Assembly: GCA_020850225.1 (NCBI GenBank)
Contig: JADZFD010000015.1
Coordinates: 1 to 64,000 of the forward strand
Direction of reading: 5' to 3'
Length of the DNA stretch: 64,000 nt
DNA from: Saprospiraceae bacterium
GTDB lineage: Bacteria; Bacteroidota; Bacteroidia; Chitinophagales; Saprospiraceae
The stretch's first letter is position 1. The number at the start of each line of letters is the position of its first letter. The notes under the pieces were generated by a model that was given only the letters and a program-made list of their open reading frames with translations, was not told where the DNA came from and ran no database searches. This document shows, piece by piece, positions 31,761 through 41,165 of the stretch. A program made the position numbers and the translations under genes.

Positions 31761-32513
31761 ATGTCTAAAATCAAACTATCTGAAATAAGTACCGGAGTAC
31801 CTGACAATCTGAAAAAGAAGAAGGCTGAACTGAAAACTATCGAAATGGCTATCAAAATTGGCCAGCTCCAGCACAAGCTTTATGCTGAACGCAAGCAAAG
31901 TCTGTTGGTAGTACTACAAGGTATGGATGCCAGTGGGAAAGACGGAACCATAAAAACCACTTTTGCAGATTGCAATCCAACGGGTATTGATACTTTTGGA
32001 TTTAAAAAACCTACTTCAGAAGAAATGGCACATGATTTCCTGTGGAGAATTCATAAAAGGACACCGGAGCATGGCAATATCATGGTTTTTAACCGATCTC
32101 ATTATGAAGATATTCTAATTCAGAGAGTTCATAAATGGATAGATTTTGACAGAGTTGAAAAACGTATGAAGGCAATCAATGCTTTCGAAAAGCTCCTCGA
32201 ATTTGACAATGATACAAAAGTATTGAAGTTCTATATGCACATCTCTCCCGAAAGACAGTTGGAAAAATTGCAGGAAAGAATCGATGATCCTGAAAAAAAC
32301 TGGAAGCACAAGGCTGAGGATTGGGAGGAACGTAAATTGTGGAGCGAATATATGGAAGCCTATGAATATGCTATCAACCAGAGTGATATACCCTGGCATA
32401 TCGTACCGTGCGACAAGAGATGGTACAGGAATTATCATATTTCAAAAATCGTACTCAAGGCACTTGAAGATATGCATCCTGAAATGCCTGTTTTAAAGGA
32501 GCATGATGAGTAA
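31761..32513 (+). CDS. ppk2: Polyphosphate kinase 2 family protein
   Basis: Transfers phosphate from polyphosphate to nucleotides (AMP, ADP or GDP depending on class). The 250-residue single-domain chain has Walker A GMDASGKDGT (about 54-63), lid-like helix region IHKRTPEHGNI, and Walker B-like MVFNRSHYEDIL with the conserved Arg-Ser-His. The C-terminal PWHIVPCDKRWYRN segment is standard. Single-domain members with this pattern are often class I or III; the class cannot be fixed here. It overlaps the S4 gene by 11 bp (translational coupling). The nearby phosphate-type regulatory genes (38.7 kb) make a phosphorus link attractive but unproven. Confidence 0.93.
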   Translation: MSKIKLSEISTGVPDNLKKKKAELKTIEMAIKIGQLQHKLYAERKQSLLVVLQGMDASGKDGTIKTTFADCNPTGIDTFGFKKPTSEEMAHDFLWRIHKRTPEHGNIMVFNRSHYEDILIQRVHKWIDFDRVEKRMKAINAFEKLLEFDNDTKVLKFYMHISPERQLEKLQERIDDPEKNWKHKAEDWEERKLWSEYMEAYEYAINQSDIPWHIVPCDKRWYRNYHISKIVLKALEDMHPEMPVLKEHDE

Positions 32514-33976: not shown

Positions 33977-34015
33977 CTTAACCCTCACGTAACTCTGTCT
34001 TAACATCTCCTTAAT
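33977..34015 (+). promoter_or_regulatory. Four tandem hexamers at 11-bp period (Pho-box-like operator)
   Basis: CTTAAC (33977), CGTAAC (33988), CTTAAC (33999) and CTTAAT (34010) are spaced exactly 11 bp apart and end 10 bp before the -7 box, thus replacing the -33 region. PhoB/OmpR-family activators bind direct repeats with an 11-bp period in this position. A PhoB-like regulator is encoded at 38779. Confidence 0.75.
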
Positions 34016-34025
34016 ATTACCAATC

Positions 34026-34033
34026 TACCTTTG
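34026..34033 (+). promoter_or_regulatory. -7 element TACCTTTG of the TonB-receptor operon
   Basis: TACCTTTG matches the consensus; leader of about 31 nt. No TTTG -33 element is present; the 11-bp repeats occupy its place, as for activator-dependent promoters. Confidence 0.7.
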
Positions 34034-34071: not shown

Positions 34072-36831
34072 ATGAACGTCAGGTCCCTGCTATCTTTTAT
34101 ACTTCTTTGTTTTATTCCTTTATTAAATATGGCTCAGACCGGGGTCATAAATGGCCATATCAAAGACGCCAAAACAAACGAACCTATAATTGGTGCCTCA
34201 ATTGTTGTTTTAGGTTCTTCATATGGATCTATTACCGACTTTGATGGAAATTTTGAAATCCAATCTGTAATTTCTGGAGAATATAAGATAATAATTTCTC
34301 TTGTAGGTTATTCAGAATTATCCGTAGAAAATATTAGTGTAGAATCAGGTAAAACTACTGAATTAAACACTTCGATGGAAGAATTGTCACTTCAACTAAG
34401 TGCAGTGGAAGTCAAAGCACAGAGAAAGACAGATTCTGAGATTGCAGTAGTATCAGAAATTAGTAAGCTAGCAAATATCGCTGTTGGTGTATCATCTCAA
34501 CAAATTGCAAAAATGCAGGATCGGGACGCATCTCAAGTAGTACGGAGAGTACCGGGTGTTTCAGTATTTGATGACCGATTTATAATTATTAGAGGGCTAA
34601 ATGAGCGTTACAATACAGTTTTACTCAATGATATCATTACTCCGTCAACTGAAGTTGATATAAAATCATTTTCGTTTGATCTGATACCAAGTTCAGCAAT
34701 CGACAGGATGATGGTATATAAATCACCCTCTGCAGATTTGCCTGGAGACATTGCCGGTGGAGCTATAAAAATTTACACCAAAACGATTCCTGACTCTGAT
34801 AACCTTTCCTTAGCTTTTAACTTAGGGTACAGATCTGGTACAACAGGAACTCGAGTGTCAGATTATTCCGGCAGTAATGCAGATTTGTTCGGATTTGGTA
34901 GTAGATTTAGGAATTTACCTTCATCATTTCCATCTACCAAAAATGTTATCAATAGTGCTGGAACCGAAGCAATGATTAAAAATTTTCGCAATCTAAATCT
35001 TTATTATGATGTAAATCAGAAATCAGTTGTCCCGGAAATAGGAGCAAATATGAGTTACAGTAAAAGAATATTTGTTGGTAGTAAAGAAATAAATACTATC
35101 TCATACATCAACTACTCCAATACCCATGTTTTTCAAGAAATGGTACAAAATAGGTACCTTTATGATGCATCTTTGCAGAGTACCTTCCAGGATGATAATT
35201 ATACCAATAATGTACGTTTAGGTGCTATGAGTAATTGGACGCTGATTATCAACCAACGTAATAAAATAGAATTCAGAAACATCTTTAATCAACTGGCTAC
35301 AAAAGAAACAGTTTTAAGGTCCGGCCATTTGTTCGATAACGATCTTGAAATCTCAAATCAATCATTCAGATATGAACAAAAGAGTATCCTATCGAGCCAA
35401 TTAAGTGGTACGCATGATTTATCTGATAAGTCCAAAATAAAGTGGATAGGCAGCTTTGGTTATACATCACGATCAGAGCCTGACTATAGACGATTTACAT
35501 CTTCAAGAGAGATAGGATCAGACCAGCCATATAAAATAGACTTACAGCAGTTTGAATCTCCTACGCTACAACAAGCAGCAAGATTTTGGTCCAATATGGA
35601 TGAATTTGTTATCACAGGAACTGCATCAATTGAGAAAGCACTAGGAACAAAAAAAAGTGACTCAGACAAGAACAAAATTTTAAAATTCGGTATATATTCG
35701 GAATATAAGGACAGGTACTTCAAAGCAAGATGGTTTGGTATAGTAAATCCAAATAGATTATCATCTGACTTCACCACAAAGGATCCAATAGACTTTTTCA
35801 ATACAGATAATCTAAGTGCATCCAGAGTATACTATTCGGAAGGTACCAATTTTGATGACAAATATACAGCTCAAAATATATTGAACGCGGCCTATGTGAG
35901 CTACTACTTACCATTCTCAGAAAAATTAAATGCAACTTTCGGATTAAGGGGCGAATTTAATCGGCAGCTCCTTCAAAGCTTTGAAAGAGGAGGAGGTCAA
36001 AAGGTAGATGTGAATAATGCTGTTTTAAGTCCGATGCCATCATTAAATGCCATTTACAAACTGAATGAAATATCACTTTTAAGATTTGCTTATGGGACTA
36101 CCGTCAATAGACCTGAGTTCAGGGAGTTGGCGCCGTTTACATACTATGATTTCATATTTGATGGATCTAAAAGAGGAAATAAAGACATTAAAGTAGCTAC
36201 TATACATAATTTTGATTTACGATATGATTTTTATCCGTCAAAAGGAGAGGTCATTACATTCGGAGCATTTTATAAAAAATTCTACAATCCGATAGAAGCT
36301 GCTATTTTTTATAATGGAAGTGCGCTTGCATTTACAGTGTCAAATTCAGAGTCAGCCGTATCAGCCGGGGTCGAGCTTGAGATTCGTAAGAGTCTGACAA
36401 AAAACTTTATGTTGCTTTTTAATGCATCTCTCATTAATAGTGATGTAGTAGTGAGTGGATTGAGTGATTATAGTAGATATTTACAGGGACAATCTCCTTA
36501 TATTGTCAATTCAGGACTATTTTATTCTCTACCTGAAAAGGGTATACAGGCTAATATATTATATAATGTAGTAGGGGAAAGTCTTTATGTTATTGGTGAC
36601 AATGTATTGAGTTCAAATGTGTACCAAATGCCAAGAAATGTCCTGGATTTAAATATTTCTAAATCTTTTGGAAATATAAAAGTAAATGCAAGGTTACAAG
36701 ATATACTTAATCAACCTTTTAAACTCGTACAGGACACTAATCGTGACAATAAAATCAGTGATAATGATGGTGTGTTTCAGGAGTACAGGAGAGGTTCAGC
36801 AATCTACCTCGGAGCCAATTACATGTTTTAG
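34072..36831 (+). CDS. TonB-dependent outer-membrane receptor
   Basis: A 919-residue outer-membrane transporter energised by TonB. Order: signal peptide ending near LLNMAQT; a CarboxypepD_reg-like domain (about 22-105; GHIKDAKTNEPIIGASIVVL, DFDGNFEI); a plug (about 125-235) with VVRRVPGVSVFDDRFIIIRG, LNERYNTVLLND and GGAIKIYTKTIP; then a 22-strand-type barrel ending in the aromatic C-terminus YLGANYMF. It is followed after 80 bp by a surface-type lipoprotein gene, presumably its partner, although that lipoprotein is not SusD-like. The upstream 11-bp repeats imply control by the PhoB-like regulator downstream, suggesting a phosphorus-containing substrate (inference). Confidence 0.93.
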   Translation: MNVRSLLSFILLCFIPLLNMAQTGVINGHIKDAKTNEPIIGASIVVLGSSYGSITDFDGNFEIQSVISGEYKIIISLVGYSELSVENISVESGKTTELNTSMEELSLQLSAVEVKAQRKTDSEIAVVSEISKLANIAVGVSSQQIAKMQDRDASQVVRRVPGVSVFDDRFIIIRGLNERYNTVLLNDIITPSTEVDIKSFSFDLIPSSAIDRMMVYKSPSADLPGDIAGGAIKIYTKTIPDSDNLSLAFNLGYRSGTTGTRVSDYSGSNADLFGFGSRFRNLPSSFPSTKNVINSAGTEAMIKNFRNLNLYYDVNQKSVVPEIGANMSYSKRIFVGSKEINTISYINYSNTHVFQEMVQNRYLYDASLQSTFQDDNYTNNVRLGAMSNWTLIINQRNKIEFRNIFNQLATKETVLRSGHLFDNDLEISNQSFRYEQKSILSSQLSGTHDLSDKSKIKWIGSFGYTSRSEPDYRRFTSSREIGSDQPYKIDLQQFESPTLQQAARFWSNMDEFVITGTASIEKALGTKKSDSDKNKILKFGIYSEYKDRYFKARWFGIVNPNRLSSDFTTKDPIDFFNTDNLSASRVYYSEGTNFDDKYTAQNILNAAYVSYYLPFSEKLNATFGLRGEFNRQLLQSFERGGGQKVDVNNAVLSPMPSLNAIYKLNEISLLRFAYGTTVNRPEFRELAPFTYYDFIFDGSKRGNKDIKVATIHNFDLRYDFYPSKGEVITFGAFYKKFYNPIEAAIFYNGSALAFTVSNSESAVSAGVELEIRKSLTKNFMLLFNASLINSDVVVSGLSDYSRYLQGQSPYIVNSGLFYSLPEKGIQANILYNVVGESLYVIGDNVLSSNVYQMPRNVLDLNISKSFGNIKVNARLQDILNQPFKLVQDTNRDNKISDNDGVFQEYRRGSAIYLGANYMF

Positions 36832-36911: not shown

Positions 36912-38231
36912 ATGAAAATTAGTTTAAAATTAATTACATTTTTGTTACTCGCAGTAGGCCTGTCATTAGGTTCATGTACTCGTGATGAAGATGAAGACGA
37001 TGTAGTTATACCAGGTGAAAATATTACTGTCAAAGGTACAATAACATCAAATACAACTTGGGATGCAAAAAATAAATATCTTATTGAGGGTTTTGTTTAT
37101 GTTGAATCTGGTACTACACTTACCATCGAACCAGGCACAATTATCAAAGGAGACAAAGCTACAAAGGCTTCACTGATTGTAAAACCTGGAGCAAGGATTA
37201 TTGCTGAAGGCACGAATCAAAAGCCTATTATATTTACCTCCAACCAACCAAAAGGTTCAAGGAACTACGGTGACTGGGGAGGCATTATACTATTAGGTAA
37301 AGCTAAGGTAAATAAGTCACCTGCCACCATAGAAGGAGAAAATATATCTACCTTTGGTGGTAGTGATGACAATGATAACTCAGGTATTTTAAAATATGTG
37401 CGTATTGAATTTGCAGGTGTTGCATTTGAAACAGACAAAGAGATAAACGGACTTACTCTGGGAGGGGTGGGGAAAGGTACTACCATCGATTATGTTCAAA
37501 TATCATATAGTGGTGATGATGGTTTTGAGTGGTTTGGCGGCAATGTAAATGCCAAACATCTCATATCGTACAAAAATCTCGATGATGATTTTGATACAGA
37601 TTGGGGTTATTCGGGTTTGGTGCAGTATGGCTATATTTATAGAGACCCTCTAGTTGCTGATCAGTGTACATGTTCAGATTCCAATGGTTTCGAATCTGAT
37701 AATGATGCTGCAGGATCAGAAGCTACGCCACAAACCAATTGTAAATTTGCCAATGTATCAATATTTATGGCAGAAGGAACTCCTGATGCTAAGTTTAGAT
37801 CTGCTTTTAGATTAAGACGTAATTCTGCATTATCTATTTTTAATTCTGTTGCAGTGGGTGCATTTCCCAAAGGTGGTCTTGAATTGGGTGACGCATCTAC
37901 ACAAGCTAATTTTATAAGTGACAAGTCTGATTTTCGTGGTCTTGTTTTGGCAGGAATGTCTAAACCTTTAGTGCTTGGAGATGAAGGAAAGTTAACTGTT
38001 ACTTCCAGAAAGAACAAGTTTGGAATAGACTTATCTGCGTTGGGATTACCTGCAAATTACAATAAATCAAACGGGAAACCTGGTTTATTGCCACTTTCTG
38101 GTTCAGTCTTACTAAATAGTGGTATAGACTTACCTTCCGGATTTGAACCAAATACTAACATTGGTGCTTTTAGTACTAATGACTGGACAGAAGGTTGGGC
38201 CAATTGGGATCCACAAAATACAGATTATTAA
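36912..38231 (+). CDS. Beta-helix-like surface lipoprotein paired with the TonB receptor
   Basis: A 439-residue lipoprotein. Signal and lipobox: LLAVGLSLGSC, with acidic residues right after the lipidated Cys (TRDEDEDD), which resembles the Bacteroidota signal for export to the cell surface. The mature chain has parallel-beta-helix-like strands: GTTLTIEPGTIIKGD, LIVKPGARIIAEG, GDWGGIILLGKAKV, and VQISYSGDDGFEWFGGNV. A Cys-rich loop DQCTCSDSNG could bind metal or form a disulfide. It is probably exposed on the cell surface as substrate-binding partner of the upstream receptor. Related proteins occur beside receptors in other Bacteroidota. Enzyme activity is not evident. A strong terminator follows at 38314. 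Confidence 0.8.
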   Translation: MKISLKLITFLLLAVGLSLGSCTRDEDEDDVVIPGENITVKGTITSNTTWDAKNKYLIEGFVYVESGTTLTIEPGTIIKGDKATKASLIVKPGARIIAEGTNQKPIIFTSNQPKGSRNYGDWGGIILLGKAKVNKSPATIEGENISTFGGSDDNDNSGILKYVRIEFAGVAFETDKEINGLTLGGVGKGTTIDYVQISYSGDDGFEWFGGNVNAKHLISYKNLDDDFDTDWGYSGLVQYGYIYRDPLVADQCTCSDSNGFESDNDAAGSEATPQTNCKFANVSIFMAEGTPDAKFRSAFRLRRNSALSIFNSVAVGAFPKGGLELGDASTQANFISDKSDFRGLVLAGMSKPLVLGDEGKLTVTSRKNKFGIDLSALGLPANYNKSNGKPGLLPLSGSVLLNSGIDLPSGFEPNTNIGAFSTNDWTEGWANWDPQNTDY

Positions 38232-38313
38232 TTAGTGGTATACTTAATGGTGATTTTCTAATAGAAATACAAAGATAAATATACTTATCATTTTTTTTGT
38301 ATTAATTAGACAT

Positions 38314-38346
38314 GGGAATTAGCATTTTGCTGATTCCCTTCTTTTT
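38314..38346 (+). terminator. Terminator of the receptor/lipoprotein operon
   Basis: GGGAATTAGCA (38314-38324) pairs with TGCTGATTCCC (38328-38338), 11 bp with one G-U pair, followed by TTCTTTTT. Confidence 0.85.
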
Positions 38347-38746
38347 ATAATTATATTTATAGTTTATCTATTTCAAGCTATGTTTCTTAAATATTTAACT
38401 TAATCAACTCAAGTACAGGTTTAAAAAAGTAAGTGTATATTCCGACTTAAGTCAAACTAATATAAAACGTAAAGGGTACTTAATCTTTTAGTATCAATAA
38501 TTTAATATACTAAGATCACCTTAGCAAATTTAAATTAGATGATAATTACTTGCCAAATAAGAATTGTTCACGTATCGTAGAAATTATTTCTACGATACCA
38601 TGTTAGGTTATAGATATATTAATAAAATGGTTGGTATACCTGTATTTACTCCTATTTTGAACAATCTTATCTAAGTAATTGTATTTTCGATGATATAAAA
38701 GAACTTAATTATTGGAAAAATCAACAGATAGCAAAAAATAATTATG
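38347..38746. other. Intergenic region upstream of the PhoB/PhoR-like operon
   Basis: About 400 bp without a supported gene. It contains GACTTAAGTC (38448-38457), a perfect 10-bp palindrome, and the 27-bp palindrome at 38572-38598. No reading frame with family features was seen. Confidence 0.5.
38572..38598. repeat. Perfect 27-bp palindrome, 13-bp arms around one base
   Basis: GTATCGTAGAAAT (38572-38584), central T, ATTTCTACGATAC (38586-38598). It lies about 150 bp upstream of the phoB-like -7 box and could be an operator for a dimeric regulator, or a hairpin. No T tract follows, so termination is unlikely. Confidence 0.65.
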
Positions 38747-38754
38747 TATTTTTG
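38747..38754 (+). promoter_or_regulatory. -7 element TATTTTTG of the phoB/phoR-like operon
   Basis: TATTTTTG fits TAnnTTTG; leader of about 18 nt before ATG 38779. Confidence 0.55.
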
Positions 38755-38778
38755 TGATTAAAGTATAATAAGAGATTA

Positions 38779-39459
38779 ATGGCTGATAGTATATTAATAG
38801 TGGATGATGATCCAAGTATTTGTGAGATTTTAGAATATAATCTCAAAAGCGAAGGTTATGAAGTGTTAGTGGCAAATTCTGCAGATGAGGCTCTAAAGAT
38901 TTTATCAGAAAAAACACAATTAATTCTTTTGGATGTTATGATGGGAGGAATGTCGGGGTTTAAATTATTGGAAAAATTACGTGCAGATGGATGTATGATT
39001 CCAGTTATCTTCCTTACTGCAAAAGATACAGAAAACGATATGTTAACGGGTTTTTCAGTAGGAGCAGATGACTTTATAACGAAACCTTTTTCAATCAAGG
39101 AAGTTGTAGCGCGTATTAAGGCAATGCTAAAAAGAAGACGCCATGATGTAGGAGTTAACAGAATTGTTGTTTATGACAAATTGAAAATTGATAGGACGAA
39201 TAAGGAAGTGTACATTGAAGATAAATTGATAAGTCTTACTAGAACTGAGTATGAAATTTTGATAAAACTGTCCGATTATCCTAACAAAACATTTTCAAGG
39301 CAGCAAATAATTGAAAGTGTTTGGGATGATGAGGTTTACGTATCAGAACGCACTGTAGATGTACATATCGCTAGATTAAGAAAAAAAATGAATGTATATG
39401 GTTCATTGATTTCAAATCGATTAGGATTTGGATATAAGTTTGATATTCATAAGTTATGA
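38779..39459 (+). CDS. PhoB/OmpR-family response regulator
   Basis: A 226-residue cytosolic transcription factor. Receiver domain (1-120): acidic pocket VDDDPS, phospho-acceptor Asp in LILLDVMMGG, Thr in IFLTAKD and Lys in DFITKPFS. C-terminal winged-helix domain (about 130-226): LISLTRTEYEILIKL, FSRQQIIESVW, SERTVDVHIARLRKKM, RLGFGYKF. Its stop overlaps the kinase start by 4 bp (ATGA), so the two are translationally coupled. The PhoR-like kinase and the 11-bp repeats upstream of the neighbouring receptor support a PhoB-type function; this is inferred, since the same domain pattern occurs in many OmpR-type regulators. Confidence 0.9.
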   Translation: MADSILIVDDDPSICEILEYNLKSEGYEVLVANSADEALKILSEKTQLILLDVMMGGMSGFKLLEKLRADGCMIPVIFLTAKDTENDMLTGFSVGADDFITKPFSIKEVVARIKAMLKRRRHDVGVNRIVVYDKLKIDRTNKEVYIEDKLISLTRTEYEILIKLSDYPNKTFSRQQIIESVWDDEVYVSERTVDVHIARLRKKMNVYGSLISNRLGFGYKFDIHKL

Positions 39460-41165
39460 AATTCAATTTAAAAAAACGTCTATATTTTTACCTAGCAATT
39501 GTTTTTTCAATCTTTACGCTCATTATTTTTTTAGTTGAACATACCAGGGAGCGTAGGTTAAAAACGGAAGCTATCGAACAAAAGTTGGATACATACACCG
39601 AAATAATTCAAAAAAGTATTTTAAACATACCTATAGATCAGTATCCTATTGTTTTACAACAAATTGAATTGCTTTTTCCTAATAATCTAAGAATATCTCT
39701 AATTGATCAACATGGAAAGGTTACGTTTGACAATTCTATAAACAATTGGTTGAGTCTGGAAAATCATTTACAGAGACCAGAAATTCAGAGGGCCAAGATG
39801 AATAAGACCGGTAGTGACATTAGGATTTCAGAGTCCAATAATACGAAATATCTGTATTTTGCAAAATACCAGAGTAATGTTTTTATTCGAGTGGCCTTAC
39901 CCTATGATATTCAAATTCAACGCTTTTTCAAATCAGACAATGTATTTCTTTATATAACTCTATTTCTTTTTGTTATTGTTTTGACGATGCTAAACCGTAT
40001 TGTTAATATCTTCGGGAGATCGATAATAGAATTACGTGATTTTGCCTACAATCCGGGTATTATGTCAGGCGTTCGTTTCCCTGGAAATGAAATTGGAGAA
40101 ATTGCAAGTGAAATAGCAGAAAATTATAAACAACTTAGAGCAAGTAATAGCAAGATAAAATTGGAAAAAGAAAAGCTTCTTCAGCATATTCACAATTCCA
40201 AAGAGGGTATTTGTTTTTTTTCAATCGAAAAAAAAGCTAAATTCTATAATGCCCTATTTCTACAATATCTTTATAATATTACTGATAAACAGGATATTCT
40301 ACCAGAAAAAATCTTTAGTGACAATCTGTTTGATAAACTTATTCAATTCATTGAGGATTATACTTTAAATTTCAAAGAATTTGTAATACAAAAACAAGGT
40401 AAGTTGTTTTTAATCAGGGTAGTTAGATTTGAAGACAAGAGTTTTGAAGTTATAATCAATGATATCACAAAACAAGAAGAAATAAAACAGTTAAAACAGC
40501 AGATGGTAAGTAATATTGCCCATGAACTTCGAACTCCAGTGGCAGGGATTAGTGGGTACCTCGAAACTATACTAGATAAAGATCTAGATACAGATATGCA
40601 ACATCATTTTTTAACTCGTGCATACAATCAAACCCGTGTACTGACTGAACTCATCAAGGACATGAGTTTGATTAATAAAATTGATGAAGCTGGCAATACT
40701 TTTGTTAAAGAACCATTAGATATTTATGTGTTGCTCAATACATTAAAAGAGGATTATTTCCACATTTTTTTAGATAATTCGATATCTTTCTTATTGGATG
40801 TTCCTCAAAAAACTGTTATGAACGGAAATCGAAATCTGATTCAATCTATCTTTAAAAATCTAATAGATAATGCTATACGTTATGGTGGGCAGCATTGTAC
40901 AATAGCCATTAAGATGTATAAAGAAGATTCTGCGTTTTATTACTTTTCTTTTTATGACACAGGTAAGGTTATTTTAGACGAAATACATTTACCTAAGCTC
41001 TTTGAAAGATTTTACAGGGTAGAGGAAGGTAGAACCAGGGTTGGTGGAGGGTCTGGTTTGGGGCTTTCTATTGTAAAAAATGCCATAAGTATTCATGGAG
41101 GAAACATAATAGCCAAAAATAGACAGGAAGGTGGACTGGAGTTCATGTTTACTATCCATAAATAG
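39456..41165 (+). CDS. PhoR-like sensor histidine kinase
   Basis: A 569-residue membrane kinase. Membrane helix 1 at about 10-26, an extracytoplasmic sensor of about 130 residues (30-165), membrane helix 2 at about 167-187 (FLYITLFLFVIVLTML), a HAMP/coiled-coil linker (EIAENYKQLRASNSKI), a degenerate PAS-like region (HNSKEGICFFSIEKKAKFYN), then HisKA with phospho-acceptor His356 in SNIAHELRTPVAGISGYLET, and HATPase_c with N box NLIDNAIRYGG and G2 box GGGSGLGLSIVK. The SN(I/V)xHELRTP..I.GYLET form is shared with PhoR kinases. No stalk to a Pst transporter gene is seen nearby. Cotranscribed with the regulator via a 4-bp overlap. Confidence 0.9.
   Translation: MKFNLKKRLYFYLAIVFSIFTLIIFLVEHTRERRLKTEAIEQKLDTYTEIIQKSILNIPIDQYPIVLQQIELLFPNNLRISLIDQHGKVTFDNSINNWLSLENHLQRPEIQRAKMNKTGSDIRISESNNTKYLYFAKYQSNVFIRVALPYDIQIQRFFKSDNVFLYITLFLFVIVLTMLNRIVNIFGRSIIELRDFAYNPGIMSGVRFPGNEIGEIASEIAENYKQLRASNSKIKLEKEKLLQHIHNSKEGICFFSIEKKAKFYNALFLQYLYNITDKQDILPEKIFSDNLFDKLIQFIEDYTLNFKEFVIQKQGKLFLIRVVRFEDKSFEVIINDITKQEEIKQLKQQMVSNIAHELRTPVAGISGYLETILDKDLDTDMQHHFLTRAYNQTRVLTELIKDMSLINKIDEAGNTFVKEPLDIYVLLNTLKEDYFHIFLDNSISFLLDVPQKTVMNGNRNLIQSIFKNLIDNAIRYGGQHCTIAIKMYKEDSAFYYFSFYDTGKVILDEIHLPKLFERFYRVEEGRTRVGGGSGLGLSIVKNAISIHGGNIIAKNRQEGGLEFMFTIHK

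Follow-up and report, generated by a model that had tools for sequence, protein, structure and literature searches.

A candidate Pho box of four hexamers with 11-bp period upstream of a TonB-dependent receptor and lipoprotein operon in a Saprospiraceae bacterium

Phosphate sensing in Escherichia coli runs through Pst–PhoU. In the PhoB box of this organism, 8-bp direct repeats are separated by 3-bp linkers and the spacing to the −10 element downstream is constant, and the Pho box of the cyanobacterial regulator SphR consists of tandem CTTAACCT repeats in at least three copies (PMC1906773). Within Bacteroidota, PhoP of Riemerella anatipestifer has a DAP-seq motif, TTTAACA, and binds upstream of a TonB receptor in EMSA (PMC9603813). 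On the side of the controlled genes, the cluster Fjoh_0541–0549 of Flavobacterium johnsoniae—named PUSIV or "PhoBR operon" and carrying the lipoprotein FII—responds to phosphate depletion with transcript fold changes of 8.0 and 9.9 (log2) for Fjoh_0545 and Fjoh_0546 (PMC8115612). Possible glycan binding or hydrolysis has been proposed for lipoproteins of the FII type, and FI, FII, and FIII are 31–36% identical to a low-phosphate lipoprotein of Caulobacter (PMC8115612), which is taken here to be ElpS. ElpS (cc0170) of Caulobacter crescentus is an outer-membrane lipoprotein made on phosphate starvation; its gene adjoins that of the TonB receptor cc0171, and its overexpression leads to more phosphatase activity in the supernatant (PMC2996285).

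The window analyzed here, a stretch of 64,000 nucleotides from a Saprospiraceae bacterium, bears four hexamers with an 11-bp period on its forward strand (33977–34015): CTTAAC at 33977, CGTAAC at 33988, CTTAAC at 33999, and CTTAAT at 34010. A −7 element of the Bacteroidota TAnnTTTG type, TACCTTTG, follows at 34026–34033 on the same strand, and its TTTG stands at an equal register in relatives. All of these start positions were given by the original prediction and are exact in the sequence. The prediction also had the array replace the −33 box, and this holds as well: the usual −33 position bears no TTTG, and the third hexamer (33999–34004) covers it. Summed over the four hexamers, the array scores 22 of 24 against CTTAAC. 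None of 20,000 dinucleotide shuffles over the 300-bp region upstream reaches this score—the best shuffle scores 19—and the array is the sole place on both strands of the 64-kb window to score at least 19. The fourth hexamer begins 20 bases ahead of the −7 TTTG, and the 3.25-Mb genome has no further exact match to TTAAY-N6-TTAAY-N14-TTTGC. It combines features expected of a Pho box, i.e., at least two direct repeats with an 11-bp period, a constant spacing to the promoter element downstream, and replacement of the upstream element, and is annotated here, conserved and in register as it is, as a Pho box and candidate PhoB site.

The first gene behind this promoter (34072–36831, forward strand) encodes a TonB-dependent receptor of 919 residues with CarbopepD_reg_2 and Plug domains, and the second (36912–38231, forward strand) a lipoprotein of 439 residues with a lipobox-like SC at C22 and a predicted β-helix, which is a homologue of Flavobacterium FII, the product of Fjoh_0546 in F. 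johnsoniae. The pair shows the adjacent TonB receptor and β-helix lipoprotein of the PUSIV/ElpS type. It does not fall among the SusCD/PusCD systems, the receptor reaching 40 bits against the SusC model, whose cut-off is 368, and the lipoprotein finding no match in Pfam; the best NCBIfam match of the receptor, TonB-Xanth-Caul, lies below its cut-off. Searching the lipoprotein profile against the PDB by sequence gave no match either. Within the lipoprotein family, D202, D203, and E206 as well as D224, D225, and D228 are invariant acidic residues, which suggests a putative metal or ligand site on the β-helix. A PPK2-family polyphosphate kinase is a neighbour of the receptor operon, encoded 1.6 kb upstream in the same direction (31761–32513).

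An intrinsic terminator (38314–38338, forward strand) with an 11-bp stem and a T-rich tail closes the operon (−16.5 kcal/mol, z −5.3). Behind it lie phoB (38779–39459, forward strand), a response regulator of 226 residues with 299 bits against NF053854, the Bacteroidota PhoB model (cut-off 270), and phoR (39456–41165, forward strand), a sensor histidine kinase of 569 residues with 535 bits against NF053855, the Bacteroidota PhoR model (cut-off 500). The supposed PhoB/PhoR-like pair near the receptor is thereby firmly placed, as both proteins exceed the curated equivalog cut-offs of NCBIfam. Its distance of 2 kb downstream of the operon applies only if measured from the receptor; from the lipoprotein stop it is 548 bp (38231 to 38779). 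The four genes of the proposed compact system make up at least two transcription units—because of the strong intrinsic terminator between them, the receptor operon and phoBR are most likely separate transcripts. The phoB leader contains a perfect 12-bp inverted repeat, GTATCGTAGAAA-TTA-TTTCTACGATAC (38572–38598, unstranded), whose folding z-score of −5.1 is well past that of shuffles, and scanning the phoB promoter for an autoregulatory box gave no clear box.

PhoR shows two apparent membrane helices around about 130 periplasmic residues, as read by eye from the sequence. The window's own genome gave no match to PhoU, and none to PstB among eight ABC ATPases of plausible size out of 43 ABC matches; by these searches the Pst–PhoU module, which is an E. 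coli-type criterion and not required of all PhoR systems, is not found here. The periplasmic part of PhoR, together with the lack of a PhoU match, sets the window apart from the E. coli arrangement. Absence of PstSABC is reported for plant-associated Bacteroidetes (PMC8115612).

We consider it very probable that the array is a four-copy Pho box and that the receptor/lipoprotein operon is under phosphate control. When phosphate is scarce, PhoR would phosphorylate PhoB, and the PhoB of this locus would, as we infer, line up head to tail along the tandem CTTAAC repeats, always on the same face of the helix. Bound PhoB would then recruit RNA polymerase to a promoter whose −7 box is good and whose −33 box is missing, and this action would switch on the operon of TonB-dependent receptor and β-helix lipoprotein. 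By analogy to its counterparts, the operon is expected to be induced by phosphate starvation in this organism. It would be the local version of Flavobacterium PUSIV, probably capturing and importing a phosphorus compound.

For this last step, a different cargo has to be weighed: the Pho box might be real and the receptor might nevertheless take up a non-phosphorus compound, e.g., a metal or a glycan needed in phosphate stress. Such an alternative touches the uptake role only and is compatible with the regulatory part of the Pho-box explanation. The AlphaFold2 model of the lipoprotein (mean pLDDT 74; block means mostly above 90 for residues 41–240; tail unreliable) displays numerous short strands, and its best Foldseek neighbours are β-helix proteins—alginate epimerases, polygalacturonases, and tailspikes—found with high probability, low TM-scores, and E-values that are all at least 0.001. 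Polysaccharide-acting enzymes and tailspikes as fold neighbours, weak as their TM-scores are, would suit a glycan, as would the possible glycan binding or hydrolysis suggested in PMC8115612. However, lipoproteins of this kind are phosphate-induced in two phyla (PMC8115612, PMC2996285), and supernatant phosphatase activity goes up with ElpS overexpression. We hence regard a non-phosphorus cargo as rather unlikely, and the import of a phosphorus compound by the receptor as likely.

The regulatory part of the Pho-box explanation can be followed across relatives. Of 150 genomes from the same family, 127 have receptor homologues (E ≤ 1e-30), and the more distant of these homologues may be paralogues. 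Forty family loci were fetched with their flanks, one per genome and mostly from different genera, but not fully independent of each other. The expected synteny of receptor and lipoprotein is borne out, a lipoprotein homologue being nearby in nearly all of the 40 loci: in the nearer clade the receptor gene comes first, in the farther clade mostly the lipoprotein gene. The box precedes whichever gene leads the operon, including the lipoprotein where this comes first. At a score of at least 14, 30 of the 40 lead genes have it, as against 27 of the 337 remaining promoters in these loci (Fisher p 2e-20), and 10 of the 40 lead promoters are without a box at this threshold. Receptor promoters pass in 56% of cases at period 11 versus 2–5% at periods 8–10 and 12–14. 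The register was taken for lead promoters with a box and a TTTG no more than 70 bases away, counting from where hexamer three of the best triple begins: TTTG lies at 20 + 11k bases (k includes one 9) in 24 of 28 family and in 15 of 16 wider-phylum lead promoters, where a fraction of about 0.10 is expected. Among 69 loci from named Flavobacteriaceae, which are close relatives, the register is kept in 65 of 67. The compiled registers read CTTAAC at −53, −42, and −31, a weaker [CG]TTAA[CT] at −20, and then TAnnTTTGC; because this table was built only from in-register promoters, it describes the motif and is no test. The proposal that the 11-bp repeats are a PhoB-type activator site gains from these data, as the signal is confined to period 11, sits in a fixed helical register, and is conserved before orthologous operons.

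The neighbourhood of the pair is more variable. Only in the window and in one other locus (L084) of the 40 does phoBR adjoin it. The receptor/lipoprotein pair also occurs with a degenerate or weak box in two records from gut Bacteroidales and one from Hymenobacter. Phocaeicola massiliensis (L335, 2930–7302) bears the pair together with a TTTGC promoter and a degenerate box. In Flavobacterium loci, the box lies between divergent PhoR–PhoB and receptor–lipoprotein genes. For Flavobacterium aquidurense DSM 18293 (L265), the order is glycosyltransferase-like protein, presumed OprP, PhoR, PhoB, receptor, and lipoprotein—the first two assigned by sequence and position—and equals that of F. johnsoniae Fjoh_0541–0546 as tabulated in PMC8115612; the link to F. 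johnsoniae rests on congeners of matching gene order.

That the motif would be shared with other phosphate genes turned out to apply in relatives. In the 150 genomes of the family, the pattern of three hexamers in register, with one mismatch allowed, has 62 sites versus 14 for the reversed control, about 24 of the 62 being at receptor/lipoprotein loci by our own count. Box and register also precede phosphate-selective porins (Porin_O_P; L127, L130, and L144), a Na/Pi cotransporter (L158), PhoX in the same genus (L155), and a metallophosphoesterase (L139) that is read as PlcP-like. Several of the remaining sites have downstream genes without a known phosphate link, which is to be expected because of the control count. 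Two sites (L138:1565–2248 and L163:1470–2072) place the box before a small membrane protein near the receptor/lipoprotein cluster, with a cation-efflux match in the latter. Because no second convincing site was found before other phosphate genes of the window's own genome, where the expected markers PhoU and PhoX have no match, the motif is not tied to further phosphate genes there. Looser pattern searches of this genome were rejected as a regulon since they showed no excess above the reversed control. L009, L010, and L002 were rejected as targets, as they bear hexamer pairs only and no recognisable phosphate gene downstream in the right orientation. A further TonB receptor of the own genome is preceded by two hexamers that keep the register to TTTGC (C15:89760–89794, minus strand; L346), which makes this place a weak candidate for a second target.

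The array might instead be the site of another OmpR/PhoB-family regulator, next to which phoBR lies by coincidence. Direct repeats spaced by roughly one helical turn are bound by OmpR/PhoB-family regulators in general, the own genome encodes several further regulators of the OmpR type, and most relatives are without phoBR beside the receptor. Against this stand the phosphate porins, Na/Pi cotransporter, PhoX, and PlcP-like enzyme of relatives, which share box and register, the position of the Flavobacterium box directly between phoBR and the pair, and the phosphate induction of the F. johnsoniae counterparts (PMC8115612). Three OmpR-type paralogues of the own genome that were scanned show no match to the PhoB model at 1e-60, and we judge a different regulator to be quite improbable. 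The possibility that the repeats arose by chance or composition in AT-rich intergenic DNA and regulate nothing is practically negligible: TTAA-rich words are common in an AT-rich genome and the looser own-genome searches are no richer than controls, but the shuffles never reach the score, and conservation, period specificity, and register, which hold across genera, already contradict it.

A four-copy Pho box hence remains the preferred reading. The original prediction called the substrate of the system undescribed. The gene set itself is known from Flavobacterium PUSIV, and a resemblance of its lipoprotein family to Caulobacter ElpS has been reported. The new part is rather the Bacteroidota Pho-box consensus with its fixed register to the −7 element, which seems undescribed; the open-licence literature searched holds no such consensus, though PhoB and its regulon have been studied in this phylum. 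Box and spacing recur across much of the phylum and are therefore useful for finding phosphate-controlled genes—the box-plus-register rule allows for their prediction from sequence. In addition, an uncharacterised receptor/lipoprotein pair is marked as a conserved part of the phosphate response, and PhoR signalling without a recognisable Pst–PhoU module is raised as a question. A wider proposition would be that much of Bacteroidota uses the CTTAAC box at 20 + 11k from TAnnTTTG as its general low-phosphate promoter and, at the same time, that the receptor/ElpS-like pair is a core phosphorus capture system of lineages without Pst–PhoU; we see the chances of both being true as evenly balanced. 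If so, the PhoR of such lineages would need a way of sensing phosphate that differs from the E. coli one.

Compared with known systems, the array has the 11-bp period and the fixed promoter distance in common with the E. coli PhoB box, whereas the repeat sequence is another one and the promoter there bears a sigma-70 −10 element. R. anatipestifer PhoP is likewise a Bacteroidota OmpR-type regulator with a TTAAC core and a TonB receptor target, but its motif is not known to be linked with phosphate genes or with a register in 11-bp steps. The SphR box has the identical core hexamer, CTTAAC, in at least three tandem copies; it belongs to another phylum and another promoter type, whereas here the box is locked to TAnnTTTG at 20 + 11k. 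In Caulobacter, the ElpS lipoprotein and a TonB receptor are adjacent as well—a resemblance known from published reports—but the locus is tied to a type II secretion cluster. PUSIV differs in that the Flavobacterium phoBR is divergent with the box in between, whereas in the window phoBR follows the pair on the same strand, behind a terminator. The PhoR of F. aquidurense, at 359 residues against 569 in the window, has no match to the Bacteroidota PhoR model at 1e-60, and the window PhoR, used as a query, has no hit in Flavobacterium at E ≤ 1e-60; judged by its sequence, the F. aquidurense protein is a shorter, different form. On the other side, PUSIV likewise has a receptor followed by a pectin-lyase-fold lipoprotein beside phoBR, the F. 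johnsoniae pair is induced by phosphate depletion, and the congeners bear, as here, a box with an 11-bp period 20 bp before TTTG.
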